Origin: Effrenium voratum
Lineage: Eukaryota > Sar > Dinophyceae > Suessiales > Symbiodiniaceae
NCBI GenBank assembly: GCA_963377175.1
Contig: CAUJNA010000857.1
Location: forward strand, 382,501-446,500
Length of the DNA stretch: 64,000 nucleotides
Reading direction: 5' to 3'
Shown: positions 25,493-50,123 of the stretch, piece after piece
How the letters are laid out: each line of letters opens with the position of its first letter
Numbering within the stretch: position 1 is the stretch's first letter
Translations under genes and position numbers: made by a program
The notes under the pieces: model-generated
Told to the model about the DNA's origin: nothing
Databases searched by the model: none
Seen by the model: the letters and a program-made list of their open reading frames with translations, nothing else

Positions 25493-26246
25493 GTCAATGA
25501 GACACTCTTTGACTCTTCGTAGTTAGTGGGGCCTGACCCAGCAAGCCCAGTTACTCACTTCACACTTCCAGAGTGGATTGGCCAGTCCAAACAGCTCCTA
25601 TACCACTAAATTGGTCTTCACAAAGCTTTAAGTCCAGGAACTCGGGGAGTGAGGCAAAGCTTCGCCTGCAACCACTTCGGGAGTTTTGGAGTCCAGGAAT
25701 TCGAAAATCTGCGCACACCAAAACAGACTCGCAGGAGCTTCATGGCTCCAATCACATGATCTCCAATCAACGACTTAGATAACCATTTCCTAGGTTCTGG
25801 AAAATTGGCACTGGCAAAAAAAACCAGCCGTGCAGGATCAACAAGCAACCGTGATTCTAAAAAAAACACATGATTCAAAGTTGCTGCTTGGAATCAGAAC
25901 CCTCCGAATTGGGCCTAGCTCTTTCTGTGCCTCACCAATCTTTTCAGGCCAAGCTGAGCAGAACCAAAACCTGTATCGCCCCGTGGGGAAGAGCAATGAA
26001 TCATACGCATGGTCCAAACTGTTTGCAGATGGGAAAGAAAGAGCCACAGTTCCCTACACACGAATTTACGGTAACATTGAAGGGTAATGGCCACACCAGC
26101 AGTACCTATTGACCCTGAATATTTAATCAGGTGCTTTGGACATCGCACACATGAACAGTAGTTGCCCGGTAGAGTATGCAATTCAGGGAGGCAATCAGCC
26201 AGATCATTGCAAGTGCTGCCGCGAATCGATCAGCAATGAAATAAAA

Positions 26247-26625
26247 TGTGATTCGGGCACGAACCTGTGCCCAGGCAATGGGTAAGTTGGGGTAAACAAG
26301 CCACAAAAGAAAGGTTCCCCAAAAGCAAACCAATCCCCGGTCCCAAAGATCAGGGTTTCCCACACACCAGAGAACAACAACCAAAGGAAAACAAACCAAA
26401 CCAGAAAAGGATACCCGCAACCTAGATCGACGATGAACCGCACGGGCGATCCCCACCAACCTACCCCGGGCCGAAGTCTCTTTCTCCTCCGACACGAAGG
26501 CGGTCGACGTGAGGGCCCGGCGACGCTCATCCGAGGCGCGCCGGATCCAAAACTTGAGCCAAAACACCACAGGTCGGTCACTAACGCGACGTCCCTGATG
26601 ATGATATGAACCATGGCTAATCACA
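26247..26625 (-). repeat. 3' LTR of the retrotransposon
   Basis: 379 bp, matching 49740-50123 end to end with small length differences. The plus-strand left 150 bases and right 73 bases are almost the same in both; the central part is strongly diverged, which is not what a single simple insertion followed by uniform decay would give. Confidence 0.95.
26553..26573 (-). promoter_or_regulatory. Spliced-leader-like sequence in 3' LTR
   Basis: Same 21 bases as in the other LTR, including TTTTGGCTCAAG, inside the 73-base stretch that is identical between the two LTRs although the adjacent LTR middle has diverged. Conservation at just this point suggests it matters to the element. Confidence 0.6.
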
Positions 26626-26632
26626 CCCCCCT
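26626..26632 (-). promoter_or_regulatory. Polypurine tract
   Basis: In the sense orientation GAGGGGG directly abuts the TGTGATT start of the 3' LTR. This is the position of the second-strand primer in LTR elements. Confidence 0.7.
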
Positions 26633-27210
26633 CACGAGGAGCCCGTCATATGACGGGCGGAGCGTGCCATTTACTGATAGGATTTAACTGCTCGCATGCG
26701 TCCGCAAACAGCTGGACACTACCGCCGTCAGCGGTGGAGCAAACCCACAAAGGCAGTTGCGCGACATCCCGGGCATTAAATTCCCGCCACCACCCCGAAT
26801 TAATCGGGGTAACGCTGTCCAACAAACCTTGTGGAAAAGTCCACATGACGACACTAGGTCACAACTGTTTGCATCAACAATGCAAGAAGTTTAATTCTTA
26901 TCAGAAGCCATGAAATAAAAGATAACGTATGTCCATTAGTACCCTCGCCTAACGGCAAGAGGTACTCCTGACCATGCGTACCTGAATAAAAATGCTTGAA
27001 TTCAGCAAACCCGGGAGTAACCCCCCATCAGTTTGCTTTCCCTCTCACTCACACTGCTCCCTGATGAACACGTCCAGCAGCCCAGCAGCGGTATGGGAGA
27101 GACATGACCTCCGCGCCTCAGCGGTCCGGGAGGAACATCACCACCTCCGCACCGCGCCGACCATTGGAGAACGGACGCAAGCCTATCGGCCGCAATCCTC
27201 GTGACTCAGC
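26633..27210 (-). other. 3' untranslated region of the element
   Basis: About 580 nt between the ORF2 stop and the polypurine tract, without coding content. It contains a perfect 18-bp palindrome next to the polypurine tract and an extended imperfect hairpin at about 26938-26968, centred on a TAAC mini-hairpin, with AGTACC and GGTACT forming its base. Confidence 0.6.
26641..26658. repeat. Perfect 18-bp palindrome beside the polypurine tract
   Basis: GCCCGTCATATGACGGGC is its own reverse complement. It lies 15 bp inside the 3' LTR edge. No repeat copies were noticed elsewhere. Confidence 0.85.
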
Positions 27211-29173
27211 CTACCGGCTATCGTCACGTCTCCTCCGGTCACGTCCGCCCCGCGCACGGTCCCTATCACGATCCCTCTCGGATCTCCTGCGATCATCTCG
27301 CCTTCGATCTCGCTCCCGATCGAGTGATTCATCATCACGACGATCACGAGCATCGTCCCTCCTCCGGTCTCGCTCATCCTCGCGCCGTGGACGGTATCTG
27401 CGCCTCCTTGACTCCCTGGAATCCCTGGTGTCCACGGTCCTAACGGACCTCCGAGAAGGAGTACGGGAAACATCCGATTCCCTACGCCTCCTCCCAGATC
27501 GAGAGTTCGTCACGATCTGGTTGAGAGCCTCCAGTGCCGACGCGTCCTCACCATTCCTGATGAAATCCCTGACCTGCTTGTTCAGCACTCTGTTGGTGGA
27601 GATCGACAAGAAAGCGTCCACCACCGAACTCTCAGGCAGCACCAGAAAGTGACCCTCCACCGGGCTCGCCGCGGCCCGCTCAGCAGACTGCAGCCGGATC
27701 TCCCCGCCTTCAGGCTTCTTTGCCATCGCCTTGGAGGCCGTCAAAGGCGCTACCGCATCCTTTGCCGAAGATCTGCCAAGCGCGGAGTGAAGATCATCCC
27801 CGCTAGCTTCTCTCGCTGCCGCACCTGGTCTGCTGTCGACGTCGCCAGGCCTCGTGGACGCCTCCCGCTTTGTCGACTCCTTCGCAGCCTCGTCGGGATC
27901 CCAACGGGATTTCCTTTCTCTCTTCTGCCCTTCGGCCGACCCGCGGCTACCGCCGGGAGCGTCACCTCCGCCTGTCTTCTCCTTCTTGACCTCAACCTTC
28001 GGTTCGGCCTGCTTCGTCTCCTTAGCCACAGCTTTTGGAGCCGGAGCACTCTTCGCCTCAGATGCTGAAGCAGCCTTCCCTCTCGGCTCGGCCTTAGGAA
28101 CCGGGGTCATTTTAGCCTTAGCACTCGGCCTGGCCCCTTCAACCACCATCTCGGCCCAAGACTTCTTCGGCTGAGCTGCTGCTGTATCAACCTCCATTGG
28201 AGCAGGTCCAGCATCATCCTTCGCCTTTGGGACAGATGGGCTACCGCCCTTACCAGATCCTTTACCTGGCACTTCACCTGATTTTGGTGGTGGGCCGGAA
28301 GGACTACCGCCCTTACCGCCCTTTTCCCCCTTCTTCCCTTTTCCTTTTCCGCCCTTGGGGACCGGCTCCTGCTTGGGACCAGGACCCGGCGCAGCATGAT
28401 GCACCGATTGGAGTCCCTCGATGTCCACGTTCAATGGTTCGGGTTGACGACCGTCAAGAACCGTCCTCACCCTTTCGTCACTAACGTAGACGAACGGGTC
28501 ACGGAAGGGTGCGGGAGGCTCCGACTGTCCGGCGCTGATCGCCTTCTGCACCTTGGCTATCGCCTCCTTCAACCTCTTCTTCTCATCGTACCCTGTCTCC
28601 GATACCATGTACTTCCTGAGCTGCGAGATCAACGCATGACTCTCCAGGATGTCCACGTCCTTTCGATGGGTCGGGTACAATGGGGTCAGATGACCAGCCG
28701 CGGAACCAATCACGTATGCCATCGGAATATAGAATGACAAGTACGTGTCATGACGAGCGAACTTCCTAACGGAAGTCGTCATACGCCTACCCCACTGAGC
28801 AGCGTGTCTTGGGTTGGCCCGGAAGTACTCCGTGACCGACTCAAATTTATCGACTTGGTTGGTCTTGATCAGGTGCTTCGCCACCCACTTCTCCACAAAC
28901 GCATCCGAGGCCGAAATCCCGGACACATAGGAGAATTGGAAGAGCACCTTCGCCAGCTCATCCCACGCCGCATCGACACCTCCCTTGTCTTCACCAAGAT
29001 AAGGGGGAAGTCTGATGCCGCTCTGCACCGTCATCCTTAGATCGGATGCCATTGAATAGGAAATCAAATTCCTCTTGATGACTCCGACCACTTCGGAGGG
29101 AATCCTCCTGGGCTTGAACTGCCCCATGGTCCTCACCCACTCCGGCACGATGTGGCACTTTCGAAGTCCTTTT
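27211..29173 (-). CDS. ORF2 segment 3: Lys-rich linker, KSRWD motif and Arg/Asp tail
   Basis: 683 codons if counted from a GTG at 29262; the first in-frame ATG is at 29127, and the natural reading is a continuation of the zinc-ribbon segment. Residues 36-250 are folded-looking (KCHIVPEWVRTMGQF onwards). About 295-345 is a Gly/Lys linker with GKGKGKKGEKGGKGG. At 447-455 KRERKSRWD fits the U2AF-ligand motif (basic run, then S-R-W-D) known from SF1 and SF3B1. About 530-590 may be a short helical domain. From 590 to the end the chain is an alternating Arg/Asp/Glu tail like that of U1-70K or SR-type splicing factors. The function is unknown; composition suggests RNA or spliceosome contact in the nucleus. 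Confidence 0.78.
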
Positions 29174-30020
29174 CCTCCGCGTTGGGGATAAAGTTCGGGT
29201 AAAAGACCGGGAGCGCGCACCCGGGACACAAGTGCATCCCATTCGGCATCAATTCTGCGCACCTCAAGCAGAACGTGGCAGTCACATTCAGCCTGATCTC
29301 TTCCCGTGATCGCCTGTGCTCTCCCCTAACGGGGGTGAAGTCACCGTAGTCCCATGCCCGATGGTACACTATCGTGTAATCATCGTACATATACGCCGCC
29401 TTCCAAGCCCCCATGTGGATCTCGTTCCTAACGGCAAGAGTCTTCCTTCTCGTCAAAAACACGGGTCCAACCAAGGACCAGTGCACCCGAAGATCCACCA
29501 TTACCACCACGTACCTACCGGAGTAGTTCCGCAGCCTGTCCCTGACATACCACGAAGGCGATACCTCAGCATCCGGCGCCATGGCTCCCACAAGTGGGAT
29601 CAGGCCCTCATCCTGCCTACCATCCCCAATGGTCTCGTACACATCGGGCCTCGTGATCAATATCTCGATCATGGCCTTTCCATTTCGCCTCACCCTTTGG
29701 AGCTGAACCGCCTTCCGAAAGTCCGAGAACTTCATGATGACGTATCCCACCATGGGGAGTTCATTCCAATGCATCTCATACATCAGAGATCCGCCAGGTG
29801 CATCTTCCTGAGTATACCTGTGCCTAACGGCACTGTAACTCAAGTCGCGTCCGATCCGCGTGTGCCTAACGGCAACCAACCTGGTGCTCTCTTTGAGGAG
29901 AACGCCGTCCCCGTCGTACATGACCATGAGCATCGCCTCCACTTGCCCTATCGGGAAAGCTTTAAGCGTCGGAATGAAGAACTTCCAAGACATCTCAGCG
30001 TTCTCCATGCCCGAAATCTC
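29133..30020 (-). CDS. ORF2 segment 2: zinc-ribbon segment
   Basis: Same frame as the preceding segment, separated from it only by TAG. An ATG occurs 12 nt after that TAG (30008), giving 291 codons. It looks folded and basic to neutral. A zinc ribbon, C247-x2-C250-x10-C261-x2-C264 (CLRC ... CPGC), lies near the end. After FIPNAEEK the frame loses its character while the frame one base back continues sensibly, so I place a one-base break at the A4 run (plus strand 29170-29173). It may be a separate product by re-initiation, or part of an ORF2 polyprotein by stop-codon readthrough, or the TAG may be a mutation. Confidence 0.7.
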   Translation of the reverse strand, partial: EISGMENAEMSWKFFIPTLKAFPIGQVEAMLMVMYDGDGVLLKESTRLVAVRHTRIGRDLSYSAVRHRYTQEDAPGGSLMYEMHWNELPMVGYVIMKFSDFRKAVQLQRVRRNGKAMIEILITRPDVYETIGDGRQDEGLIPLVGAMAPDAEVSPSWYVRDRLRNYSGRYVVVMVDLRVHWSLVGPVFLTRRKTLAVRNEIHMGAWKAAYMYDDYTIVYHRAWDYGDFTPVRGEHRRSREEIRLNVTATFCLRCAELMPNGMHLCPGCALPVFYPNFIPNAEEKDFESATSCRSG

Positions 30021-33000
30021 CTACAGGAACCAGATGGCCTGGTCACTTTTCACCCAGTTTCCAGCCTCGCGTCCGGTCTCCTTCAGCACACGTTCCTCGA
30101 ATAACTCCGAGACTCTCTTTGAATTGATGACCAAGCCGTCGAAATCGCACGAGAGCAGTCTCATCAACTCCTTCGCCGCCTCCCGTCCTGCAACAGTACC
30201 CACGGTCTCCTCGTAGTTCGGGAGGTATTCACCCAACCTCGTCTTCGAGGGAACCACAATCTGGCAAGTGACGGCCTCATCAGGGATAACTCCCGTTTCC
30301 CTTAACTCTGGATTGATCTCTCGCCTATCGGCAAGATAATCCTCCTTCCCATCCAGTATCACAAGATTGTAGGTCATCTTGCTCGCCGCCCCACTAGGCC
30401 TGAACTTCCTGCTATCATCCAACTGGTCAGGAGCAAAGGGTCCACTAGGGGCGGCCGCACTCACCAGAGGCGCTCCTCGCCCAGAGCAGAGGTGCTTCTT
30501 GTGAAAGTTCACCATCTGATTCAGCTGCGATAGTGCGTAGGCACGATCCTCCAATGACGCACTCTTCATCCCAGCCTCAGTCAGAGGAGCCTCAGGCTTG
30601 TCATAACTCGCCTTTCCGCCCCATCTCGCCGCGACCAGCTCAGCAGACTTCGCAGGGTCGATCATATTTCCCGACCACTCAGGCATGTTGCTCAACCTCC
30701 TAGTCAACGCGTCTACCGACGCAGCCAAGTCTTCGTCCGTCACGGTGTAAGGGTCGACCTTCTCCCTGTCCTCTTGACCCACATCCGGAAGCCTATAATC
30801 CCCGCGGATAGCCTCCAGCGCGGCCCTCTCGGCTTCCTCAGCCTCCTTTTGCGTGGCCACTGCCCTCGGAATCAAGAGCGCTACCTCGGCCGGCAACGAC
30901 TTCTCCATGTCTATCGGAGTGTTCTTGGGAAGGATCCTTCGATCATCTCCCTCCCCGCTGTACTCATAGTCAGGAGCAGTCTTCCGGTACTCCTCGAAGG
31001 TAGCCCCTTTGAAGTTGGTAATCTCACTCGGGTCTGTCTTCCCAGCCTCAGTACCCCGAGGCGTGGGCTCCTTCGTCCCGGTGGAATCCTTCTTGGAGCC
31101 TTCCTGATCCACGTCCATGTCGTCCTTCTTCTTCTCCGTCACGGACAGCTTCCCAATGTCAGGAAGGGTCACATCATCATCCTTTCCTGACCCGGCGCCC
31201 CTATCGGGGGCCGGCTCGGTCCTTGGTTGCCCCGAAGAGCTCGCCCCAGGATCCACATCGCCCTCGTCGTCCACATGTGGTCGCTTTCCCCACACGATCT
31301 TCGTCTTCGGCTTCAGCGGGACGGCGACACCTCCAGCCATATGGTGTCCAGGCCAAGTGGCTCCTTCAGGGTCATCCTCGAACCATGATTTCCCGAACGG
31401 GAACCCATCCCTTCCGATGATCTCCTTCCTATCGGAAGTAGATCCCGAATGGGACAACGCAGATACATGAGACAGCATGATCTCAGCCGCCGATTGCGCC
31501 AGCGCATCGGACATCTGCTCCCTTGTCGGGATAGTCCGCAGCTCCGGAGCGAGGTGACCGGCAATCATGCTGAAAGGCGCAGTCCCCAGCCGCTTGCCCA
31601 ACACCGCCTCATTCAGCGCGTTGAAATACTTCTGCAGCTTCTCCAGCATTGCCGTCGCCGCCATCAGCTGGGGATGAAACATGGGCATCCGCCACGCGCG
31701 CCCAAGGGCGGAATCCACGTGCGATGCGATCGCAGTGATCGTCCCTACCAGCAAGTGTGACGATGCAATCTCCGGCACCCAAGTCGGGTCGTCCAAAGGA
31801 ATGCATTGTCCCGTCTGCGCGTTTAGCAAGGTAGCCCTCACTCCCGGCGCTCGAAGACAATCATACGCCCTGCGGTTCGGGTCACTAACGACACCACGAA
31901 CCATGTAATCATCCCGATCGGGCATATCTGCCCAGTCCCCCGGAGGTGCCCACCCATGATGGTACTTCGCCTGAATGTCCTGCCTCATCCCTAACGGGAT
32001 ATGGGCAGCCTCGGACGCCACCTTCTTCATGTTCCATTGCTGATCACCCCACGGCGTAGACTTCCGATCTCGAGGATTGATGTACTCCTGATCGATCCTT
32101 CCAGCAGCTCGGGAAGCATCCAACGCCCCGTACATGAAATCGTTATGCACAGCCCTCTCCAATACCGCATTCCACTCGCTATCGCGATTCGGGAACACAA
32201 TGTGGCTAGTCTCGTTCGCCTTCCTCCACTCCTCCGCGGTAACCCGCTCTTGAGTGATTGCCTTGTTCCTGATCACAGCATAGATGAAGGGCTCACCAGC
32301 CTCCCTAGCCAGGACATGCTGAACGATGAACCTCCTATTCGACCTGCTTTCCGCCGGTCTTGCTGATGTCCGCGAGCCCCTCGTGGATTGATATGAACCA
32401 TGCTCACGGTGATGCCGAACTTCCGCTGACTCCAACTCGGGCGCCTCTCCCGGGTGCTCCGGGTACGGCGTGTTTGCATAATTGTGTATGCCCCCTCGAG
32501 ACTCCTGGGTTGAAGCCGCCTTCGGGGTCGCTGCAGTATCCCGCAGGTCCCCGTCGTCGTCCGTGTACTTCGGAGCATAGGAGATTGGCACACCCGGGCC
32601 ACATGCACCCGACGCCTCCTCCTTCTTCTGAGCACCAACAGGTTCTCGAGCCCTGCGTTCCTCCCTAACGGGCGATGCCGCTCGCTTTGCCGCAGGCGAT
32701 TCCACCGACGGCTCTGTCGTAGTCGTAGTGGCCTGAGGCACCTCAGCTTCCCTACCGGGAGTCTCCTCCTCACCTGCAGCGGGAACCTCGGCTTCCTTCT
32801 CCGGCTCCATCTCAACGTCTCCGGTGAACTCTAACACCTCGGCCTCGGTCGGACCCCCACCATCGTTGAAGGTATCCGTAGGGAGATCGACCCCTTCCCT
32901 ATCGGGTAGGAGATCATCGACCTCGGCGGAGCCACCCGTGTTCTCCTCCTCAATCGTCGCTCTAGGCGTTCGAAGATTCGATGACCATCGATTCCCAACT

Positions 33001-36000
33001 TCGGTCGCCGTGACCTGGGGTGAAGAAACCCTCGGACTCCGAGGTGGGTTCGGCGGAGATTTCGGTCTCACCGATGCCAGCATCTCCTTCGTGACTAACG
33101 CCTTAGGAGGCGCTTTCGGGGCAGCGGTCTGACCTACCGCATTCTGACCTGCGTCAGATGACTGCCCACCAGGGGTAACGCCTACCGGCGGTCCTCCCAG
33201 AGCGGCACCTGTCATGTCGACATCCTCAGACTCAGACATCGATCCGCCATCACCCATCTTCGAAGAAGTACCCTCCTTCAGAAGCTTGAGGATGTTGTCC
33301 CTGATGTGCAACGTGACAGAACCAGGCCATGTAGTCCTGGTCAGGGAGAAAAAGTCCGGAACTGCCGCAAGGTAGGGCGGCACCACGGCCCATGCTCTCT
33401 GGACCGGCCGGTTCCTGCCGTAGCTGTCAACTTCGCTCCCCCCTGACACCGCGTCTGCTGAAACCACTGGGATCAGGTTCGCACGGAGATCGCCCATCTT
33501 ATGCTGGATCTCCTTAGTCATGTGAACCCCTTGGTCACCCTCTCGATCTAACGATCGCCCCGGACCACAAACCATCACCTTGACCTTGTTGTTGAGTGCG
33601 ACCAGCGACGCCACGTCCTTACTCCACACGGTCGCCGCGTCACTTCTGGCCTTCCATGCGTTCCTCTCCCACCTATACAGGTAGGAGCCACGGAGACCAA
33701 AAACATACAGGTCATGCTTGGCAGCATCCGCGTTGCCGTACTTCTGGACGCAGTCGTCCGTCCGCTTGTCCATCAGCTCGTACGCCTTGTCAATCATCAT
33801 CCGAAGGGATGTCTCCTCGTTATCACGAGTGCTGGTCACGTAGTGCACCTCACAGTTCTTGAACGGCCGGTTATCTGGGGAACCCCTCAACCGGTCATTC
33901 TTTGTCCTGCACTTGAGGATGTCCTCCGCCAACGTTGCTGGGTCCATCCCTTTCTTGTTCTTCGTGGATGCAGTGTTGAACGTCTGATCCAGCAGGTAGA
34001 ACACAGTCGCATCCGGAGCCGCGGACTCCTCTTTGAACACCGGAGGACCGTATCCGGCCGCTAAGGCCGCAGCAATCCTCACCGCAGCGCCCGTCCCACT
34101 AGCCGCCAAACACCGAAGCAAGATTACCATCTTGTCTTGGTAGCGACTCATCTCGTGCAGAACGATGGATGGGTAGATAGACAGCATCACATCCGCTAAC
34201 ATAGCAGCTGCCCATGCGTCCCACTGCCTTTCCAGTTGCACAGAATCAACCGCCACACGGGAGTATCCTCCCCTCGGCAGCTCCACTGTTGGCGGGACGA
34301 CTTTCCCACTCCTGATCAGGCGCATCACCTTCCTAGCTTGCTCAAAACATTCAAGCTCCTTCGGGAATAGCGCTCCCCGCCCAACGGCCTTTGCCTCGTC
34401 CTTGATCTCGGAAAGGTATCCCTTCGTGAGGGTGAGCTCAAACGTTTCACCCCGGATGGCCTCAAGCATGTTCGACTTCGGCACGATCCTGGCGTATAGC
34501 GCCCCACCTTCTGCCTCGGCAGCCTGAGGGGTCCCTGGAGCAGCACGCATGTTCTCCTCTTCAACGGAAAGACCTATCGGTCCCATGTAGTTCTCTGGGA
34601 AGAACTTGTGCATAGCCCACACTACCGATGGAGCATGCGGATTCCATTCGACGAATGGGTTGTAGTACTGCAGGGTGCTATCGCCCCCTGAGTTACACAG
34701 CTCCACATATTGTGAGTCCGCCGCAGGCTTCTCAAGCTTGATGCAGATCCCACAGATCCCCAACCTCGCGTTCGGGAACACTCGTTGGGCTCCTCGCTTG
34801 ACACCCTTCAGGTGGGGATTGTCGCTGAACAGATTCTCGGACTCGTCTGGTTGCGCGATGCAAATCGCGACCCTCGCCCACGTGTTCTGACCGTAGTGCG
34901 ACAGAGTGCTGTATCCCAGGGCCTCGACCGCCTTCAAAGATGTCCACACACCTACCGACTCATCGCTCGCGGTGGACGCAGTAACCTGCATACCACCCAG
35001 AATGCTCCACAATGAAGATTGCGAAGTTCCATGGATGAGGACCTTTTCAGTGTCCGTCTGGCCCCTGAAATTGATGGCCAAATCGAAGAATGCCCATCCA
35101 TCGTCGGGACCAATCTCCACGTCAGTGGCACTCGCCGGGTTCTTGGGCGAGATCCTCAACACCTGTCTACGGTCCCAGTCAAGGGCATCATGCAGGGACG
35201 TGACCACACCTGACATCTGTCCCATCGCGTGCAGGTACCCCCGCATCCCTGGCTTATCAGCCGACGCGAACTTCTTGACCGACGGGACCGACGAAAGCCT
35301 TCGACCCGAGGAACATCTAACGATCTCCTCCCTGTTTCTCCCTTCCGTCAGCATCATCGCGTCCACGACCAACTCCGGAGGCGTGAACAGTGCGTTCGGC
35401 CTCTCGCTCATCCAGGCACGGATTGCGTTGAAATGGTGCTCCGCATCACCGAAATCATCTCCACTATACAGAGGGTGATCTCCGAATGCCGCCTCTGCCT
35501 GATCAGCTACCGCCTTTACCAAGGCAGTCTGCGGGTGAACCGTCTTCCACTCCGGCCAGCCCTTCGGGTCTCCAACCCACATTCCTCCGCATGGTTCAGC
35601 TGCCGGCTCCGTACTGCTATCCATAGGTAGCGCACTCTTGCCACTTTCAACGCTTTCCTCAAACACGAACGCGATATGGTAGGGAAGCAAGAAAGCAGGG
35701 TCCGTCGGAACCGCAGCGCAGAGGATGGCCGCCAAGTGCACGGCGTTCATCTCCGTAACCTCCACTCCCCGGCGCTTCATTTCCGCCACTATCGCAGCAG
35801 TCCTGACCGCCCGGTACCGGATCAGCTTTTCATGGTCCGTCACCGGCATGTGGGACTTGTCGAGCTTGTCCTTGCTGATGTGGGATACTCTGCCAACCAG
35901 TTCGTCGAACCTCGCGGCACTGTCATCCTCAATCAGCTGATCAGCCTTCTCCATATCTGGATCAATCGTGGTGAACTTCGGATCCTGTCCCCTAAACCCC

Positions 36001-36146: not shown

Positions 36147-36440
36147 GCGTCAGCAGGTTCGGGCCACCGGCCACAGAACCACGGATGAACCGGGAACCCA
36201 GCCTACCGGCCAGAGTCCCCTGTCCCTCAGAAGGCTCAGCCTATCGGCCAGAGACCCTCTCCCTAGAACAAGAACCTAGAAAATGAATAATTGACAGATT
36301 CCGTCCTTCACGAAGCAGAAGAAAAACCTTAGTGACAGGCATATCTGCCTCATGCTTTTGTTCTGGTCAGTAAGCGCATTGAGTCGCCTGTGAATGTGGT
36401 GCGGTTGCCCGCGGGGTGAGCCAGCTTGATCAAGCAAAAG
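36147..36440 (-). other. Spacer between ORF1 and ORF2
   Basis: About 295 nt with stops in all relevant frames, including TGA two codons before the ORF2 ATG. The sense strand has pyrimidine-rich stretches ending in AG (TTTTTCTTCTGCTTC; CATTTTCTAG; GTTCTTGTTCTAG, AGs at about 36263 and 36276), which would suit a trans-splice acceptor for a separate ORF2 mRNA. Two loop-TANC mini-hairpins (36201-36210, 36239-36248) lie between these AGs and the ATG. Confidence 0.45.
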
Positions 36441-39298: not shown

Positions 39299-42200
39299 TG
39301 CGGGAATACATGCTCCCTCAGAGGCATAGGTATCCAAACCCGCACTCCCCGAAGTAGCCCGCGTCGGGATCTTGGCAGTTTCACTGCTAAGACTAACGTA
39401 CAAGGTATTCGGCTTCTTCTTCCATCGCTGTTCAATCGGGTCAACCTCGACCGGCATTGCATTCGCGACCTTCTTGAAAGTGCCGTTCGGGTACCATGCT
39501 CCAACGATTGCCTCGCACATTTCACTCGGATAGAGAGCAGTCGTTGGGGTGACCGACCCCTCAATGCGTGCATGAAGGTATCCCTTCTCGTGCTTGCATT
39601 TCCGACCTGACAGCTCATCAATGAGCTCCTTGGAGGTCGTCGCAACCTTCCACTGCTTCCTGATTGGCACACCGTCCTTGTCCTGCATCCCGAAATCACA
39701 GCCGTCGAAATCTACGGTCTCGACATCAGGATCAGCAAGAAACCTCTGCATGAACGGTTGCTTCCATCCAAGACAGTGTCTAGGCCACTCAAATGCAACC
39801 CTGCCCCCTCCTCGCCTAACGGCTCGGGAGGCCCGCAGGAACGCCGCAAACATCACCTGAGAATTCCTTCTAAGATCGTTCAGGTGTGATGCAAACTCAG
39901 CACCGTGAATTGAAAGGTTGACATACTGCCATGTACTCCACGGTCCGCACGGAATTGACGCCCACAGGTCACACCCAGGATTATCCTCGATGATCCCAAT
40001 AAGCCGACTAACGTCTTTGGCTTTGGTGATGTCAAATGAGCCAACGTGAACGCGAATTGCATCGCCTCCACACTCCATCATCACTGCGGACAAACGCGAG
40101 TCAGGTTCACACGCAAACTCGATGAGGAGCTTGCGGCCAGGCGCTGGAGCAGCCGGGTCCCTCTCAGGATGTTCGCGGCGTCTTTCTTCCCTTAGGGATA
40201 ACTCCCGTTCGGTTTGAACATATATCTCCCGAGACCGGGTGGACATCTGTCTCCAACTATCCGCATCAATTGAATTGGGTTTTCCGGTGCCTGCGTATGG
40301 CCGCTCACGCCTATCGGCGGATTGGCCATAGTCGATCCTGTCTCCGTGCAGCTTATGACCCTTCTTCGGACCCCCGGCAGGTTTGGCTCCTTCTTCCTTT
40401 GGCCTAAACCTACCGTGGGGAGCACATCCCTTATCAAAAAGGATGGTCACACCAGTCCAAAAACCACGCGTGAAATGCCGATGATTGGGAGCATCGTGAT
40501 GACGATCGTCTCTCACCCAATTTCCAACGGCATCAAGCCCCCGCATGTGCGTGACCCTAACGGTGTCAAGCTCCTCATGCGAAGGACCACCTGGAGGAAG
40601 GTCCTCGTTCGTCGTCCCGAAGAACTTCTTCCGCACCTCAACGTGGATGCGATACCAGGCGCTGTCCTCGTCGTGCCGCTCCCAGTAATCTGAGACGCAC
40701 GCGTCACCACTCCCTTGGACAGCCTTGCTCTGAATGGCCCCATCAGACTTGGAAGAGCTACCGCCCCCCTCGTCCTGTTGGTCATCGTCATCATCATCAG
40801 GATCATCAAATCGACCTTCATCAAAGTCGAATTCATCCCTGATCTTCTTACTCGGCTTTAGGTCGGCCCTTCGGTCAGCTAACGCCTCCCGAATGGTCCG
40901 AGTCCTAGCATCATAGGATGCCAACATCGGGAACACGTAGGGCTCCTCAGGGTTCTTCCAGATACGTTTGACCTGGTGTATGCTTGGTTTCCTGAGACCC
41001 CTTTGGATGTGCTCGAGATCAGCAACGAGATAGTCGCCCTTCCACAGGCCCCCTGGTTCTAACCGATAGCCCAAAAATAGGCCTGGCTTGGACGATGGGG
41101 CGAACTTTGGGTCTTCCTCAATTTTGATGAAGTCCCGCTCTTTCTTCTCGGCGGGCAGGGCAGTAGTGACGCTTGTCTCTTCAACCTCTACCTCATCAAT
41201 GGGAACAAAATCCGGCTCGTCGTTGCACTCGGGTTCATACTCCTCGTTCTCATAGATCTCGGCCTCGTCCTCATCGATCTGATCAAAATCACAGTCGAAA
41301 TGAGTTTCTCCAGTCCATTCGTGGTTACCTCCACGGTCGTTTTCGGCCTGGAGCCAGTTTTCGTCAACAACGAATTCGGTCGATCCGTCCAGATAGTTGA
41401 GGACTGTGCTCCGCCTCCTGCCAAGGTCTTTGATCTTGACTGGACAGCTCGTCCCTATCGGGATAAAGAGCTCGGTTCGCGCTTCAACGTGGACGCGAGT
41501 GAGAACCTTCTCGTCTTCATTTGCGATCCAGTGGTCTCCTCCTTCATCAACGTCCTCTGAGTCGATCTTTCCAGCATGTCTGAAGTCGTTTTGGGCGTTT
41601 TGAACCCCCCCCTTTCTATCCCTGCGAATCTTGGGAGCAATGGGGTAGAAGTCGACCAGACAACCAAACGGCAGAATGACTCCGCTGAAGTTCCCGTTAC
41701 CGTGGCGTCGCATCCACGGTGATCCCTCACCGCGATTTTCGATGTTCCTTGCCATGGAAAAATGCCTAACGGCAAATGGCCACCATCGAGGTTCAAATCC
41801 AGCTTGACGCAGGAGCACACGTGCCCCATGGAGAACAAGCTTAACCTTGTTCTCGATCAGGCCATTGGTCTTGGGCATGCCCGGTGTAGAAAGCCGGTGC
41901 AATGCTCCAAGCGTAGTGACAGCATTCTTCAGCTCTGGGGCCTGGTCGCTGTACACTAACTTCAGAGTTTGCCCCCCTGCAAACCTGCGAAATGCCTCCA
42001 GCGTATTGCTACGGGATCTGGATTGCACAGGAAGGACTTCGAGGTAGTCAGTAGCGAGGTCATAGAACACTATCGCGTCTGCTTCGCCATGAAAGCCTCG
42101 ATCCTTCAATCCTCGCAACACCATCGTGTCAGCAGTGGTTAGGTCCCCGAAACTTACCACGTCATGCGCAGCAGCACCACCTTTGCGGCGAAGCTTGACA

Positions 42201-43888
42201 TTCTCCATTTTCGCACGCTGGCAGTGCGGGCAATAGGGGTTCTTCGGGAGATGGGTGAGCATATGGCGAAGCGTCTTAGCATCTGCCCGCCATTCAGCCT
42301 CTGTGCGGAGTCCGGAGAGAAAGTTTATCTCGACAATGTCACCATCATCCCCTTCCCCCGGGCCAGGAAAAGGTGGTGAGTGGCTATCGCCCTCACCCCC
42401 CTGTTCCGCCTTTCCGGGAAGAGCAACGGTCTCGCACTTGACCCGAAACCACGTTTCACCCGTCCAAGGGACATCAGATGCTATCGCATGCTGATCTCTT
42501 TCGGATAACTCCCATAGACTATCAACCAGCACCTCATGGGTAACCCCATTTCGATGAACGACAGTTTTCCTGTAGTTGTCCAATCGATCAACTCCAACGG
42601 GGCAATCATCGCCTATCGGCACAAACTTTGCTTTGCGCGGAAGCCGGTGCTCCTTCACAACATGGCCCGACCGCTCAGTGCGCCAGGTGTCCTGTAGCTC
42701 ACTCTTGGCCGCAAGCTCAGACCTACACAGCGGAATCTCGCTGGCTTCAAGCCCTCGATACGCCGCCCCGGGGGCAGGCATAGCAGGGATTGGCTCAGCA
42801 TCATCAAGAGTGGGAGAAACGAACTGAGTGTCACCATGAGGAAGATATGGCACGTTGTTGATGACATCCAATGTCACCGTCCGGCCCGAAGGACACGTGA
42901 GAGTAGGCTTGCAACCTGCAGCCCATACAAACGAATATCCCATATCCATACAACGCTTTCCAACGGATATGATGGATGGAGTGGACTCAAGGACGTGTGC
43001 CTCAATCACCTCGTCCAGGTTGCCAACATCAGCATCAACACGACCAGCGGTGCGAGTCGCCCCGTTGGCAGTGTGCAGCGCATGAGTGTGTCCGCCTTTG
43101 GCAATCAGGGCCCTATCGGGTCCTTTCAAATCACCGAGACCGACCAGATCCATTGGGCAACCAGTATCTACCAGCCACCTCACCCCATCGTATCCAACAG
43201 GTGCAGCAACCTTCTGAGTGTACTTCGGCTTTCGTACAACGCGATGTCCCCGCACATCACCAGGGTTGGTATCGATGTCCTCGTCATTGTCTAGGAGCAC
43301 TTGGGCGTGAACAGCCGCTGCTCTTATCAGAGCACTTTGAACTTCCCTAGCAATTCTCTTGCGCGAAGGGAACTTAATCGCATTTGGATGGCTGTATCCA
43401 GCCTCACGGCAACGATTCACGACCCTACCCGTATTGTCATTCTCAATCGAGACAACAAACACATCAGGAAGATCGGGAATCTTGACCCTGAGAGGTTCCC
43501 TACCGGGACCCTTCGGGAAGTACTTGTTCCTCCAGGAGAGTACAGCCTCCGCATCATCGCAATACCAAAACGTCGTCTTGGTATCACTTCGTCTTGGGAG
43601 TCTCCCGAACAAGGTTGCTCGGCGATCACTAAAGTTCACCCCGACATCCTCGATTACGGTCCCATTTGCGTCAACTGTCCGTCTCCAGATGACTTGGTCC
43701 CATTTAGGACCCCCACCGGTAGTGCCGGAGAAGAACAATGCGCCTCGCTCGCTTTTCTCCCAACTGCTAACGCAAGGAGGGAGGCAACCCGGTGCAGACC
43801 CACCGGTAGCTGGGGCAACAGCCCACATAGCTGGACACGCCACAACAACACGGTTGGCCTCAGGGTAACGGCCCGCCCCGCCTAAAAA
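39263..43888 (-). CDS. pol: ORF1 Pol segment 1: protease, integrase, methyltransferase-like domain, start of dUTPase
   Basis: About 1,526 codons from a GTG at 43843; the frame is open back through the Gag stop. Numbering from that codon: aspartic protease WLVDTGCP (Asp226); a short H527-x3-H-x6-C-x2-C541 motif, compact for an integrase zinc finger; integrase core Asp567 (GDLTTAD), Asp633 (YSDQAPE), Glu664 (GLIENK); copia-type linker [12 protein letters not shown] at 921-932; acidic linker to about 1025; methyltransferase-like domain about 1238-1410 with [22 protein letters not shown] (Cys1299), FEWPRHC and KQWKVATTS; then the first dUTPase motif, [11 protein letters not shown] at 1500-1510. 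The frame is lost at a G5 run (39294-39298) inside the dUTPase. Protease and integrase would process the polyprotein and insert the cDNA. Confidence 0.88.
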
Positions 43889-46800
43889 TCCGTCAATCCT
43901 TGAGCGGGGCTGTCGAGACGCCTCGCCTCCCTATCGGGAGGACTGGGCGTAGGCGATCTAGGGGTATCCCCCTCTTCATCCTCAACAACCGGACCAGCAG
44001 TGGAACGAGGCGTAATGGGCTTCGTGCCTGGTGGTGGCTTCTGATGCAGGTACTTGCACGGCTGAGCTGTGCATTTGCCATACATCCAGTCGTAGCAGTA
44101 TCCGAAGAACATAGGCTTGTCCCTAACGGGCCTATCGCCAGTCCTCGGCGTAGAGGGCGCAGCGGGGTTCCTTGGGCTCTTGTCGTGCTCAAACCTGCAT
44201 TCCCGACCATATTGACACTTCCCAGTCTTCGTATACTCCCAGCACGCCCGATCAGCAGGCCCAGCAGGGGACTGTCTTCTCGGCGACTTGGGAGACGGTG
44301 TGCGCTTATCCCTCTGACTGCCTCTTCCAGGAGAAGCTCTGTCTCTCTGACTGCTCCTTCCGGGCGAAGATGATCTCGGCTTCCCGTCAGGTCTCCCATC
44401 CCTTCCGGACCTAACGGACCTTGAAGGGCTGGGATCACTCTTCCTGGCAAGTGGGTCGTACCGCCGCACTACACCGGGAGCACCAGGATGTCGATCCCTT
44501 TCACGGGATTGAGAGCCCGATCGTGACCTCTGCTCATGAAAGGTCTGGTACATCTGAAGCGTGTTCTGGCGCTTTTGCCATCGTTCGACACAGTCCTGAC
44601 AAGCCTTATAAAGCCACGCGAATGACCTAACGGTCACATCGCGATCCCACCTCTCGATGTCGGGCCGCATACAGCGTAGATGACGAACGTTCTCGATGAA
44701 CACAGCTAACAGTACCCCATCATCGATCTTCTTCCTAATCCCAGAAATGAGATTGTCCCAGGTGCTCAGATAACTCCGGAGCCTTGCTTCATCATCAGAG
44801 TGACCCGTCTGCCGGCACTTGAGACTGGTCAACTCAGCAATCTTGAAGGTCTGGTCGTCCTCGACTCCAGTCTGCAGGTGGTTCAGCAGAAGCTTCAAGA
44901 TCTGCCTCCCCTTGATACCCTGAGGGGGATTCATATTCTGAGCGGCTTCGGTCAGGCGATTCATCTTGTCCCTAACAGCCCTGGTCTTGATGCACTCCCT
45001 GATAGCACTCGTGAAGTTTGAATCCAAAATCGGGTACTTGCATGGTCCGCCAAGAGCATCATAGTCGAGTCTCTCAGTCTCTGAAATCCACGCTAACGCG
45101 TAGTCAGAGTCAAAGCTGAAAGCGTTCCTGACCCTTTCTTTGATCTCTGAAAGCCACTCCCGCAGCTTATCAGCTGTCGGCTCAGCAGGCAGCACGATCG
45201 TGTTGCACTTGTGATGGAACCGGTCCTTATCGACAACGGTGGAAATAAGAGCCCCTATCGGGGTACACGAGGTAATCCTGCAACTTTCACACAATCTAGC
45301 AGGCATAGGGCAGCAAACTTCACACGCCCTCATTCCACAACCAACGCAAGGAACAAGAGGGAAACCAGGCTCAGGGATCCTGTTACACTTAGTGCACCTG
45401 TCCCGTCCATCATCTCCCCTCAAGGCTTCAGGGAGAAGACCACCATCTCCCTGCCTACCGGCACCATTCACACTATAGCCGAGGCTAAGACCCGGCCCAA
45501 GGTTACCACCGCTCGCAACACTTGAGGGGTAACCCGTGGCATTGCTAGACTGACTAACGCCAGCGCCAACCCCTTGGTGACTAACGCCACCTCCGTAGGC
45601 AGGACCATAGAAACTGGAACCACACAAATTGTTCCCAATTCCATGAGTATCCGCAGCACTACCATGGAATTCGGGCGCCCCACCAGGGTAACCCCCGGTA
45701 GGAGCCCCTCCATTCGGGCCTCCAGAAGGCCCAGCGGGACCTTGGCCTCCACCATAATGCCCAGGACCTGGTGGTGGAGCTGGGGCATGTCCATGACCAC
45801 CACTTCCGCTCCCACCTTGACCAGGTGGTCCGCCTTGCCCACCACCTCCCCCGGGAGGAGGAGGAGGGGGCGGTCCAGCTTGCGCGCGCTCATGCCGAAT
45901 ATTGCAGCGCGCACATCGCTCAAGGCCGTCACTTCCAAAGTAGCTGTGATTCTCACAGACGTGAGTCCCACAATCCGTGCAGAAATACATGGAGACCTCC
46001 TGAGCATTCTTGCGACATGCCCAGCATTTCATTTTCAAGAACTGACAATTGTAACAGTCCCCGTCGTCACCACGGCAAAGCCCGCAGAACTCACGACTGC
46101 ATGTCACACACGAGAATTCAGCGTTCGGGTGCCTACGGTCGTTGGGATCATCGAGGGCACAAATCTTTGGCGCGTCTGGGCCATCGCCGCCGGGAGCCCC
46201 TCTTGCAGCCGGCGCTGAGGCCTGTCCACGATCCGACGGATCTCCAGCGGTCCCTCGCCTATCGCCGGGACTCTGGGTGTCGGCGCTGGCTCTACTCCCA
46301 GGAGTCCTCCACTCATCACCAGGACTCTGGATGTCGGCATGAACCCTATTACCCCCACCACCTCCTGAATGACGACCTGGGTTCGGAGAGACGTTCCCGC
46401 TATCGCGGATTGGCCTATCAAAACTCGGAGAGACGCTCCCGCTATCGCGGATCGGCCTCTCCCCCCTCGATTGTCGACTCCGGGCCTCAGATCCCCTATC
46501 GGGGACGGCAGCAGGCCTCGGGCTCCTATTCCTACCCGCATCCCTATTGGGGGAAATAGAAACGTCCCCCCTTGCGCGCGCGCGGGGACCACCCCTTGCA
46601 CGCTCCGGTGGCGAATGCGACCTGTCAGGCAACCCCCGAACCCTCCTGCTCCTGCTGTCGGACCTCTCCCTAACGGGATTGATGGGATGCCTGTCTGCGC
46701 GAGAAGGATCGACCCTATCGGGCACATTCGGCAAAACATGATCAGGCAAAACGACGCCTCCGCCTGGTCTCACCGGCAGGCCAGTACCCCGGCCGTCACC

Positions 46801-48494
46801 TTCCCCAGGTGTAGGCGTCGGTGACCTGATCCTATGTCCTTGCCCCGCAAATGCATGGTAACCAACATTCCGTCTTTCTCTGGGTTGTGGAGGAGCTTCA
46901 TTAATCTGCTGGACACCCTGAATAATGCCAGCAGCCTCGTCAAATTGACCCTCCATCTCAAAGAGCTGGGACATGATTCTGTTGTTCGCGGCGCTAAGGT
47001 TACGCACGTTGCCATCGATAGCGCTGACTCTCCGCATAACACCTTCAAGTGTACTCCGGAATGTGCCGAGTTCTCGCCTAACGGCAGGCTGCACTTGGTC
47101 ACTGCTGGCAGGAAGATTACGGATCTGTCCTTGGATGCCATCAACGACCCGATTCACAATTGCCGATCTCGCTTCATACTGTTCAACATGTGACTTCACG
47201 GTCTCAAACCTCGAAATGATGTCGTCATGATCCCGACGTTGACGTTGAATTCCTCGAGCCAGATCCTGCATCTTCCGATTGATCTCGTCAATAGCCTCAT
47301 GCCAGTCCTGCGGGGAATCACGTTCTGATGGTCTATCGACCTCCTGAGAACCCCTTCCACTCTGCAGTCTCGACACTCGATTAACAAGACGAGTGTGCTC
47401 TTCTTTGATCCCTTCAATAGATTCAGAGGCCCACTTGGCAAATGTCTCGTGTTCAAGGAGAGCTTTCTCGATCTTCAGGTTTAACTCCCTGAAATTTGCA
47501 TCCACTACACTGCCGCTGGCCCTATCGGACGGATGCGCGACAGGATTCGGGTTCCATACACCTGCTGGTGTCCGCATCCCAACGGTTTTCTCTACCGAGA
47601 ACATCCGTTTCTCAAGCTTGTCCAAATCCTTAAGGATCTCGTCCTCAGAAGCAGCATGGCTTCTGCGGGCAGCCTCACTATTCTCCTGAATCATCAGGCG
47701 AAGCCGATCAGTCGATGCCTCATTGTCCTTGACAGATTCATGGACCTCGTGGGACAGTAGGTTAATCCTCTGCTCCACGACCTCGGCTTGCTCATCGATG
47801 GCTTGCCTCACAATGGCCCTGCTATCGGGAATAACTTCCCTTGCGAACCGTTGAACTATCATTCGCATCCTCCCGGCATCAGATTGAGTCGCAACCTCAG
47901 CTGCCAGTCGATCGACCTTGTACTTCGTCTGTTGATTCTCGTCGCTCCATTCCCTTCTCATGGAACTCACTTGACCGTTCAGTAACCTGATCTGGTCAGC
48001 AAAAATATGGAACGCTTTCGCGACTGAGCCAGAAACCTCACCTCTCTCGAGCATCTCCTGGATGTGCAAATCGAACACCTCCTTTGCCCTAGCGTCACCT
48101 GATTCACCGGAAGAATGAGACCTGAGTGCTGGAGGAGTCGATATCTCGATCCTCTCAGGAGCCCCACTAGCTCTAGCATATCTTCTGGGGTCATCCACAG
48201 GACTATCACCAACCCCAGATGGCCTGCTAGGGGTAGAACCCCTTCTACGGCTATCGCCGGAACGGGGATCAACATGGGACGCACGAGACTCGGGAGTAGA
48301 GTGGATGTGAACATCAGCAGGATCAGGCATCTCCTCATCCTGCGGAGTTGAGTCCATTGGTGAGGGGCTAGCCCTCCTCGCCTTCGACCTATCGGTCTCA
48401 ATGGCCAGGGGTGACGGTCTCTTCGCAGAAGCACTACGTTCCCTGGCGGTCGAGCCCCATGAGGTGTGAACTCGTTGCTGGACCTTAGCGTTTC
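43882..48494 (-). CDS. gag: ORF1 Gag segment: coiled coils, Cys clusters, capsid-like region, CCCH fingers
   Basis: Open frame with ATG at 48357 (1,491 codons to TAG at 43882), but open back to 48494. Residues from that ATG: predicted coiled coils about 97-260 and 280-480; Ser/Arg/Pro-rich disordered 500-730 with repeats of RDSG-VSP; Cys-rich cluster 733-818 (many CxxC pairs, B-box- or RING-like but not assigned); Pro/Gly-rich 827-960; second Cys cluster 988-1026; helical region about 1060-1270 (LREWLSEIKERV, ALAWISE) that I take as the copia-type capsid; RS-rich 1275-1365; two CCCH zinc fingers, C1372-x8-C-x5-C-x3-H1391 and C1421-x7-C-x4-C-x3-H1438. Copia Gag normally has a CCHC knuckle; here CCCH fingers occupy that place. 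The role would be particle assembly and RNA binding. Ends one base out of frame with the pol segment. Confidence 0.85.
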
Positions 48495-49685
48495 AAGGTC
48501 ACTGGTATCTCGCCCTAACGGGCTAGCGATCGACGGACGATCCTCGATTCCGAGTGCATCGGCAAGCCGGCCATCTCTTGCACCTCTCCCAACGACATCG
48601 GCAACCCGCTCAGTGACTCTCGGCGAACCAGTAACCCGGTTCGAGTTCACGTCTCTCTGATCTAACGGACCCCCAAACGTAATGTTGGGAAAAGGGGGAA
48701 CATTCGGGGTATCACCAATCGCCGGGGGACCTACCGGTCCCTCACGGTCATGGATGGCCTCCAATCCCCGAAGAACTTCCCGACTGTCCCTGGCTCTCTC
48801 TCTCTCGCTTCGGGCATCCCTGTCAACGCGAAGGTCCCTGGCGGCTCCACGAGAGAGGCTCCTGGGCCTCGCAGCATCACGGATCCTAGCATTTCGTCGT
48901 GGTTGGTCCTCCTCCTCATCACGGCGATCCGCAAATGCGGCATACTCGTCATCATCATCGACCTCAAACTTGGCAGCGGCGGGACTAGTCCTTGCAGTCG
49001 CACGGCTGCCTGCATTTCGGCGCGAATGGCTCTCCTCCTCATCCGCAAAATTGTAACCTTCGCCATCATAAGACTCAGATTTGGCAGTATTAGGGTTGGG
49101 CCTACCGGCATCAGATCCCTGCTTTGAGCTACTGCCCCAACCTGCGGTTGATTTCAACAGATCATCGTATCCGAAGTCCGTGAATTTCCGCTCCTCGTGC
49201 TCATCAAACTGACCTGGATTCTGAGAACCAGTGGATCGGCCCGGGATGCCTCCCGGAGCCAGAACCATAGTCCCTGGTCCCTGCGGCCTATTCTCAAACT
49301 CATCCGAGACCTGCGACTCACCTGGAACAAGAGATCTCGGAGGTCGAACCGGCATGGCCTCCGGGCGGGCCATGTCCATCGCCATGCTGATGAAGTCAAA
49401 ATGTCCACGCCTGTGACCTGATTCAGAGCCACTCCTATCGGAGTAAACCCTTCGTGTCTGCTCGTCATCAGTGGCCTGGCGGAAAATACGATCGTCTCCA
49501 TCGTCGGCGTACCTGCCACGGCCCCTGGGTGTATCCCTACCGGGATCTTCACCCCTGCGGTCCTGACCTGTCGAACCTGCTTCGAAATCCTCGTAGTCAT
49601 AGTCCGGTAGGTCCTCACCTGAGCGGAGGCCACCTAGGATGGCCTCCTCATCCACGACGCTCCTTCGAGATCGTGGGGTCGACAT
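48455..49685 (-). CDS. ORF1 leader segment: N-terminal disordered Gag region
   Basis: First ATG of the element, 54 nt downstream of the 5' LTR edge; the frame can be extended upstream only from a TTG. About 410 residues, rich in Arg, Asp, Glu, Ser and Gly, with no hydrophobic core: almost certainly disordered. Two related charged blocks are visible (RRNAGSRATAR and RRNARIRDAAR, each next to a D/E-rich run). The frame stays open to 47979 but after the sequence LRSSNEFTPHG it turns Leu-rich and loses character, while the frame of the next segment takes on the same Ser/Arg composition. I therefore place a one-base break near the G4 run at 48455-48458 (or the run at 48408-48411). Joined to the next segment it would form the N terminus of Gag. 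Confidence 0.75.
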
Positions 49686-49708
49686 AGAGCTTGTAGTTGA
49701 TGGTCTCA

Positions 49709-49739
49709 AGCGCGTAGGAAAGTCCTACGGCTGATAACC
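49709..49739 (-). promoter_or_regulatory. Candidate primer-binding site and adjoining hairpin
   Basis: Immediately after the 5' LTR the sense strand reads GGTTATCAGCC. This resembles the TGGTATCAGAGC-type site that pairs with initiator methionine tRNA in many copia elements, but with a mismatch at the start. It is followed at once by a perfect 7-bp hairpin, CGTAGGA-CTT-TCCTACG (plus strand 49713-49729). Confidence 0.5.
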
Positions 49740-50123
49740 TGTGATTCGGGCACGAGCCTGTGCCCAGGCAATGGGTAAGTTGGGGTAAACAAGCCACAAA
49801 AGAAAGGTTCCCCAAAAGCAAACCAATCCCCGGTCCCAAAGATCAGGGTTTCCCACACACCAGAGAACAACAACCAAAAGGAAACAAACCAAACAAGAAA
49901 AGGGTTAACCCGCAACCTTGGTCGACAACAGGCCGCACGACTGGTCCCTACCAACCTGGCGGCGGCCCGAGGTCTCTATCTCCCCCGAGATGCCGTCGGT
50001 CGACGCAGGGGTTCGGCGACGCCCATTCGAGGCGCGACGGAACCCAAAATCTTGAGCCAAAACACCACAGGTCGGTCACTAACGCGACGTCCCTGATGAT
50101 GATATGAACCATGGCTAATCACA
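49740..50123 (-). repeat. 5' LTR of the retrotransposon
   Basis: 384 bp, with 7-bp inverted ends TGTGATT/AATCACA. On the plus strand the first 150 or so bases and the last 73 are nearly identical to the other LTR, while the middle (about 49885-50050) differs at many positions. In the sense orientation it reads from 50123 down and carries TTTTGGCTCAAG about 60 bases from its start. Confidence 0.95.
50051..50071 (-). promoter_or_regulatory. Spliced-leader-like sequence in 5' LTR
   Basis: Read on the minus strand the 21 bases start with CC and end with TTTTGGCTCAAG. The dinoflagellate spliced leader is 22 nt, ends in the same 12 bases, and also has CC near its 5' end; about 15 of 21 positions agree from memory of that leader. 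This could be a leader relic fixed in the LTR, marking where transcripts once began or were trans-spliced. Confidence 0.6.

Follow-up and report, generated by a model that had tools for sequence, protein, structure and literature searches.

Dispersed packaging signals have reportedly been studied in satellite tobacco necrosis virus and in parechoviruses. In single-stranded RNA (ssRNA) viruses and in the pregenomic RNA of hepatitis B virus, such signals are many short stem-loops which share a common loop motif (PMC6281560, in part). Since the signals are usually loose, this idea is hard to test, and it is an open problem how long retroelement RNAs are distinguished from cellular RNA. Here we describe a Copia-type long terminal repeat (LTR) retrotransposon of about 24 kb, located on the minus strand at positions 26247-50123 of a 64,000-nucleotide (nt) stretch of the Effrenium voratum genome (the window; G000:C857:382501-446500 of a genome of 1.16 Gb in 3699 contigs), the sense RNA of which carries a dense series of short hairpins with nearly the same tetraloop.

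By their presumed way of working, the dispersed packaging signals of ssRNA viruses would be the nearest analogue of this series. Many short stem-loops with a common loop motif run through the RNA in both cases, and the MS2 motif (x)xYA ends with a pyrimidine followed by A, as does the GDUA loop described here (PMC6281560, in part). The differences are at least 99 sites, a 24-kb retrotransposon as their carrier, a nearly invariant tetraloop and a reader protein that is so far putative. With the Psi-type regions of retroviruses and Ty1 the locus shares an LTR element and a Gag protein which selects its own RNA (established for Ty1 Gag, a candidate function here), although Psi is located near the 5′ end (PMC8396678, in part), whereas the sites found here extend over the entire RNA and also occupy the LTRs. 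The series and its two terminal members are:

26577..50088, minus strand: 99 sense-RNA hairpins in series, each with a GDUA loop on a stem of 4-8 pairs that includes no more than one G-U
50075..50088, minus strand: hairpin of the 5′ LTR, GUCGC-GUUA-GUGAC, with one G-U pair
26577..26590, minus strand: hairpin of the 3′ LTR, the same as that of the 5′ LTR

A hairpin was defined as a stem of at least four pairs with at most one G-U, D in GDUA stands for A, G or U, and in most computations the element was taken as 26247-50124, i.e., with one extra flanking base. The loops are GAUA (46), GUUA (33) and GGUA (20), and the spacing has a mean of 240 nt and a standard deviation of 192. Under the same rule, the antisense strand of the element has no GDUA hairpin, and the 40-kb flanks have five (3 + 2 on the two strands). 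The first-pass annotation had reported about 60 sites, one per roughly 400 bp, with a plus-strand TANC loop (a stem with a GNUA loop when read as sense RNA) and a fixed C-G closing pair, all in one orientation and confined to the element. The confinement and the orientation were borne out, as 102 of the 112 plus-strand TANC sites of the window with a perfect stem of at least three pairs, and 74 of 76 with at least four, lie inside 26577-50088, and the opposite strand of this interval has 3 and 0, respectively. The number was too low, since 99 sites (one per about 240 nt) are found when one G-U is allowed, and the closing pair need not be C-G (C-G-closed sites with a stem of at least three pairs number 68, of which 67 lie inside the interval).

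Perfect stems of at least four pairs surround 38 of the 110 GAUA words of the sense strand, 22 of 81 GUUA and 14 of 78 GGUA words, but none of 47 GCUA words, and the looser one-G-U rule gives a single GCUA hairpin. All tetraloop hairpins with such perfect stems number 176, compared with 92 in five block shuffles; the excess is about the size of the GNUA class, and every tetraloop outside this class accounts for four hairpins at most. A search through 5504 loop classes (up to four members each) placed GNUA first with 108 hairpins, against no more than 16 in 20 dinucleotide shuffles. The best antisense class, UANC (75), mirrors the sense GNUA sites, as Watson-Crick stems are able to form from both strands. 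The classes of the right flank were within the null, and the best ones of the left flank (RTRT, 22 and 20) slightly exceeded the null maxima of 19 and 17, which is, by the look of the loops, an AT-repeat effect. Among other loop lengths no comparable class was found, except for the same sites minus one pair, and Rfam at its gathering threshold gave no matches. GNRA and UNCG are stable tetraloop classes; they likewise have four-base loops, but the enriched class has U at position 3, where GNRA has a purine. In the element, GNRA forms 14 hairpins from 1030 words and UNCG 3 from 365, and as these common stable loops are not favoured, the GDUA loop looks read and not merely stable. Stem position 6 is near random, which sets the unit at four to five pairs. 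Four or five of the first five stem positions are paired (G-U counted) at 138 of the 271 sense GDUA words and at 9 of the 122 antisense ones, and thus the real number of hairpins may be about 130-150.

The wobble pairs favour action of the hairpins as sense RNA, as had been proposed at first from A-C mismatches on the plus strand. When one of five pairs was left free and the other four were kept Watson-Crick (a perfect stem being counted five times), the free pair was Watson-Crick in 175 cases, G-U in 30, A-C in 8 and another combination in 36; at stem position 2 it was G(5′)-U(3′) in 14 cases and never U-G or A-C. The hairpins are also predicted to form in their context. The mean predicted local stem pairing was 0.80; it was 0.58 when these 14-base hairpins were set between shuffled flanks, a control that cuts stems longer than five pairs, from which part of the gap may stem. 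The value of 0.26 for other tetraloop hairpins (n = 228) is not a matched comparison, as these are weaker in energy (mean -3.1 vs. -5.8 kcal/mol for the series). The overall folding energy is modestly low (mean z of -0.73 for the sense and -0.55 for the antisense strand), with -1.09 for folding segments containing hairpins, -0.49 for those without, and -0.17 and -0.23 for the left flank (16 kb).

The series is independent of coding. Its members are spread over the LTRs, all seven stop-free frames and the noncoding parts (6 in 1664 nt noncoding), and the loop G falls into the three codon phases 55, 15 and 28 times (98 memberships, overlaps counted twice). The codon-preserving check named in the first-pass annotation came out in its favour: synonymous codons were shuffled 500 times within six open reading frame (ORF) segments, with ORF6 and the overlaps left out, and the 81 hairpins observed exceeded the null about 25-fold (mean 3.3, maximum 8). 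Within ORF4, which encodes the reverse transcriptase (RT), hairpins are carried by the conserved blocks CVDRYI, VGDSP and LKRYLG (0, 1 and 10 gaps, respectively, in 59 alignments), and other hairpin sites lie in variable, gappy stretches; taken together, residues at hairpins have a gap rate of 0.18 vs. 0.08 elsewhere and an identity of 0.45 vs. 0.49.

Purifying selection keeps the hairpins in other copies of the element. The search of the genome with ORF4 returned 5593 first-look candidates, of which 55 were scored, and all of these, the window itself included, were 98-100% identical, so the family is apparently abundant and young. Eleven pieces of nine other copies of this one genome, 1-10% diverged, were compared (three from the RT, two from ORF5 and six from the Gag region, with RT and ORF5 both represented in two of the copies); one Gag piece, L036, extends into the 5′ LTR and the flank, and its LTR was also aligned to the 3′ LTR of the window (383 positions, 89%). 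Variable positions number 1029 among the 14,256 covered. Within the 65 covered hairpins (862 nt) there are 13, compared with 62.4 expected from circular shifts, of which none in 4751 was as low (minimum 23). Both controls were undepleted, i.e., GDUA words outside hairpins (123 variable positions vs. 90 expected) and other tetraloop hairpins (113 vs. 115), hence conservation extends neither to the words nor to hairpins in general. Four loop changes occurred, all at loop position 2 and all within A, G and U. Among the nine stem substitutions, five keep the pair (four of them via G-U) and four break it, three at the outermost counted pair and one at the closing pair. Over pieces 90-99% identical, 204 of 207 hairpin instances were retained; a piece with an identity of only 90.5% retained all 23 of its hairpins, and three sites carry a hairpin in a copy where the window has none. 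The RT pieces alone have no variable position among 88 in hairpins, against 5.6 expected (2 of 801 shifts also gave 0). The codon shuffles and the copies together show conservation of the hairpins beyond the need of coding. It is also worth mentioning that in the copy L032 (G000:C3017:399891-404490) the Gag region is 90.5% identical at the DNA level and the RT 99% at the protein level; this copy may be a mosaic.

A contig scan yielded two relatives among 54 matched stretches. L001, a single 3.6-kb contig from a Chitinophagia metagenome-assembled genome (MAG), has an open frame resembling Copia (best segment 49% identical), and its sense strand carries 13 hairpins with another loop, U(A/C)(A/C)G (UMMG), for which codon shuffles gave a mean of 1.5 and a maximum of 6 in 500. 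Its best four-member class is YMCG, with 15 hairpins vs. no more than 8 in 100 null runs, and the best antisense class, CGKR (10; null maximum 8 in 20), mirrors the sense hairpins. The word cUMMGg lies in hairpins in 12 of 17 cases and occurs twice antisense; the predicted pairing is 0.78 vs. 0.53 in shuffled flanks. A U-G stands exactly at pair 4 in 7 of the 13 hairpins, and one of the 13 is closed by a G-C pair, which may be chance. The loops UACG and UCCG fit UNCG, but UCAG and UAAG are used as well, whereas none of the 19 UUCG words and none of the 27 UGCG words forms such a hairpin. L002, a 3-kb contig from a Kiritimatiellae MAG (38%), has no hairpin series, and neither has L010 (G000:C857:80001-90000, minus strand), a second Copia element of the same genome with an RT 53% identical over 182 residues, which P0079 matches at 83%. 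The series is thus a property of certain lineages, between which the loop can differ. Nineteen other 10-kb stretches of the genome hold 19 GDUA hairpins on both strands together, a sample that omits a twentieth, tandem-repeat-rich stretch (L023) with 11. Viral contigs gave no confirmed relatives in four scans (with ORF4 of the window, A1, A3 and L001); among phages and plasmids, the best 20 of 1024 and the best 20 of 252 records matching ORF4 all fell in its dUTPase part, and residues 1-999 of the L001 frame had no match in plasmids. Both L001 and L002 carry eukaryote-type Copia genes on contigs filed under bacterial MAGs, which is probably contamination.

The explanation that we prefer, with roughly an even chance of being right, is that the dispersed GDUA hairpins serve as element-specific sites for recognition by an RNA-binding protein that the element encodes, and that they mark and condense its RNA for packaging. 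The strict loop, free stems, sense wobbles, selection beyond coding, rarity in the host sequence sampled and the other loop of another lineage look like the trace of such a reader protein, and a different loop in L001 would be expected if the reader and the loop co-evolve. In the full-length sense RNA, each short stem would present a GDUA tetraloop to an element protein, most simply the RNA-binding part of Gag (ORF2), since Gag must pick the genomic RNA. With some 100 or more sites over 24 kb the binding would be multivalent; the element's own RNA could thereby be distinguished from the mRNA of the host and from the RNA of other retroelements, and the long RNA could be condensed into the particle where reverse transcription takes place. 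Several observations weigh against this explanation. The packaging signals known from other systems are fewer and looser. L002 manages without a series, and so does L010, the Gag of which has tandem CCCH motifs, so that CCCH motifs by themselves are no sign of the code; a protein other than Gag may be the reader, and the specificity may reside elsewhere than in the CCCH motifs of Gag, e.g., in ORF1 or ORF5-7. A predicted fold of the Gag region had too little confidence for use (mean pLDDT, the predicted local distance difference test, of 36). Finally, no two-sided compensatory change was seen in the 65 hairpins among copies 1-10% diverged. The idea of a maintained sense-RNA fold put forward in the first-pass annotation is upheld by the codon shuffles, the G-U asymmetry, the predicted folding and the strong conservation of stems, and its overall interpretation is partly supported, packaging and Gag binding being candidate roles. 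More tentatively, and with the balance somewhat against it, giant protist Copia lineages may each write their own tetraloop barcode (GDUA, UMMG) about 100 times across all frames, and a lineage-specific reader would then convert it into self/non-self packaging.

The same sequence evidence would suit any loop-reading factor, and the hairpins may instead be targeted by a host or element factor whose function is a different one, such as control of translation, RNA export or stability, base modification or cleavage at specific sites. We regard this as unlikely, though it is the alternative that most deserves attention: L010, a relative within this genome, has no hairpin series, which agrees with it, but a host reader might mark host genes too, and the flanks and the 19 stretches are at low background. 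The loop also differs in L001, though the host of L001 is another one. It is rather improbable that short stable hairpins just compact or protect a long RNA, without a specific reader. The lower folding energy of segments with hairpins relative to shuffles speaks for it, as does L001, the loops of which belong to the unusually stable tetraloop set; stability leaves unexplained why GAUA, GUUA and GGUA are used over GNRA and UNCG, why GCUA is avoided and why loop changes are limited to position 2 and to A, G and U.

Action of the hairpins on single-stranded sense DNA in reverse transcription or integration appears very unlikely. DNA can accommodate G-T wobbles, and sense DNA would be compatible with the wobble asymmetry as well, so that sequence cannot separate the two; an RNA role requires no extra assumption, and the sense strand exists as single-stranded DNA only for a short time while reverse transcription proceeds. 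There is hardly any room for mobile mini-hairpin insertions or for chance and composition. Some sites do lie in gappy stretches of ORF4, as the higher gap rate indicates, but insertion was rejected as the source because the stems differ in sequence and other hairpins are built from codons of the ungapped or nearly ungapped ORF4 blocks, and chance, composition and a codon effect were rejected on the codon-shuffle maximum of 8 vs. 81.

We know of no retroelement with a genome-wide RNA address code, and no retrotransposon with a series of this kind was described in the titles and abstract openings of the open-access papers listed. Here the strictness of the signal makes it visible in the raw sequence, and other copies reveal selection on it; it would give a clean system for multivalent RNA recognition and a marker for further coded elements.

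In Symbiodinium genomes, no retrotransposon superfamily is more abundant than Copia (PMC5890265, in part), and the element resembles the Ty1/Copia elements of Symbiodiniaceae in its LTRs, its abundance and four RT homologues named Symbiodinium among the matches listed; it differs by its 24 kb, several extra ORFs and the hairpin series, which L010 lacks. Seven stop-free frames (581, 1536, 1555, 958, 2042, 295 and 704 residues) lie between the flanking LTRs:

49740..50123, minus strand: LTR, sense 5′ end, with inverted ends TGTGATT...AATCACA
47982..49724, minus strand: ORF1, 581-residue open frame without family match; 9 hairpins
43885..48492, minus strand: ORF2, resembling Gag by eye, with coiled-coil and Cys-rich segments; 24 hairpins
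39266..43930, minus strand: ORF3, protease/integrase-like (motifs by eye, tblastn to the second Copia); 13 hairpins
36444..39317, minus strand: ORF4, dUTPase and Copia-type RT; 13 hairpins
30024..36149, minus strand: ORF5, 2042-residue open frame with two homologues found; 28 hairpins
29136..30020, minus strand: ORF6, 295-residue open frame without family match; 5 hairpins
27214..29325, minus strand: ORF7, Arg-rich C-terminus, without family match; 6 hairpins
26247..26625, minus strand: LTR, sense 3′ end

The flanking LTRs and the Copia-type RT place the element with Ty1/Copia LTR retrotransposons. The ends of the two LTRs are nearly identical and the middle (26411-26548 vs. the matching part of 49740-50123) is clearly diverged, as if different templates had recombined. 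No identical 5 bp of a target-site duplication were seen by eye at 26231-26260 vs. 50111-50140, for which decay or recombination is possible. Both LTRs (26553-26566 and 50051-50064, minus strand) contain TTTTGGCTCAAG, which corresponds to the 3′-terminal 12 bases of the spliced leader of dinoflagellates (sequence from PMC6050394, in part) and could be a sign of a trans-spliced 5′ end or of the R boundary; the match (2 mismatches in 14 bases searched) is weak on its own, because 0.81 such matches are expected by chance per window.

ORF2 has two CCCH motifs near its C-terminus, with Pfam CCCH matches below the cut-offs (best 23.9 vs. 24.6 bits). For ORF3, a Pfam search gave no match; the tentative integrase assignment rests on DTG and HH-CC motifs seen by eye, the alignment with L010 and a weak IS481 match (E 0.03). 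In its C-terminal part, upstream of the dUTPase, there is a region with FEWPR, by eye similar in P0038, which we take to be a candidate with a loose likeness to methyltransferases. ORF4 matched dUTPase (E 5.7e-28) and the Copia-type RT family RVT_2 (E 6.9e-6; 26.3 bits, under the curated cut-off of 31.6). Among the best 120 of its 207 homologues, many have PF07727, and the few with an organism name include Symbiodinium (4), a Kiritimatiellae MAG (1) and willow (2, with coverage limited to a dUTPase-sized part). Together with the spliced-leader bases in the LTRs, the Symbiodinium homologues suggest a dinoflagellate host. ORF5 had no Pfam or NCBIfam family and one solved-structure match (E 0.39). 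ORF5, ORF6 and ORF7 (27214-36149) are separate frames here, and the homologue P0127 seems, by eye, to span the matching parts in one protein.

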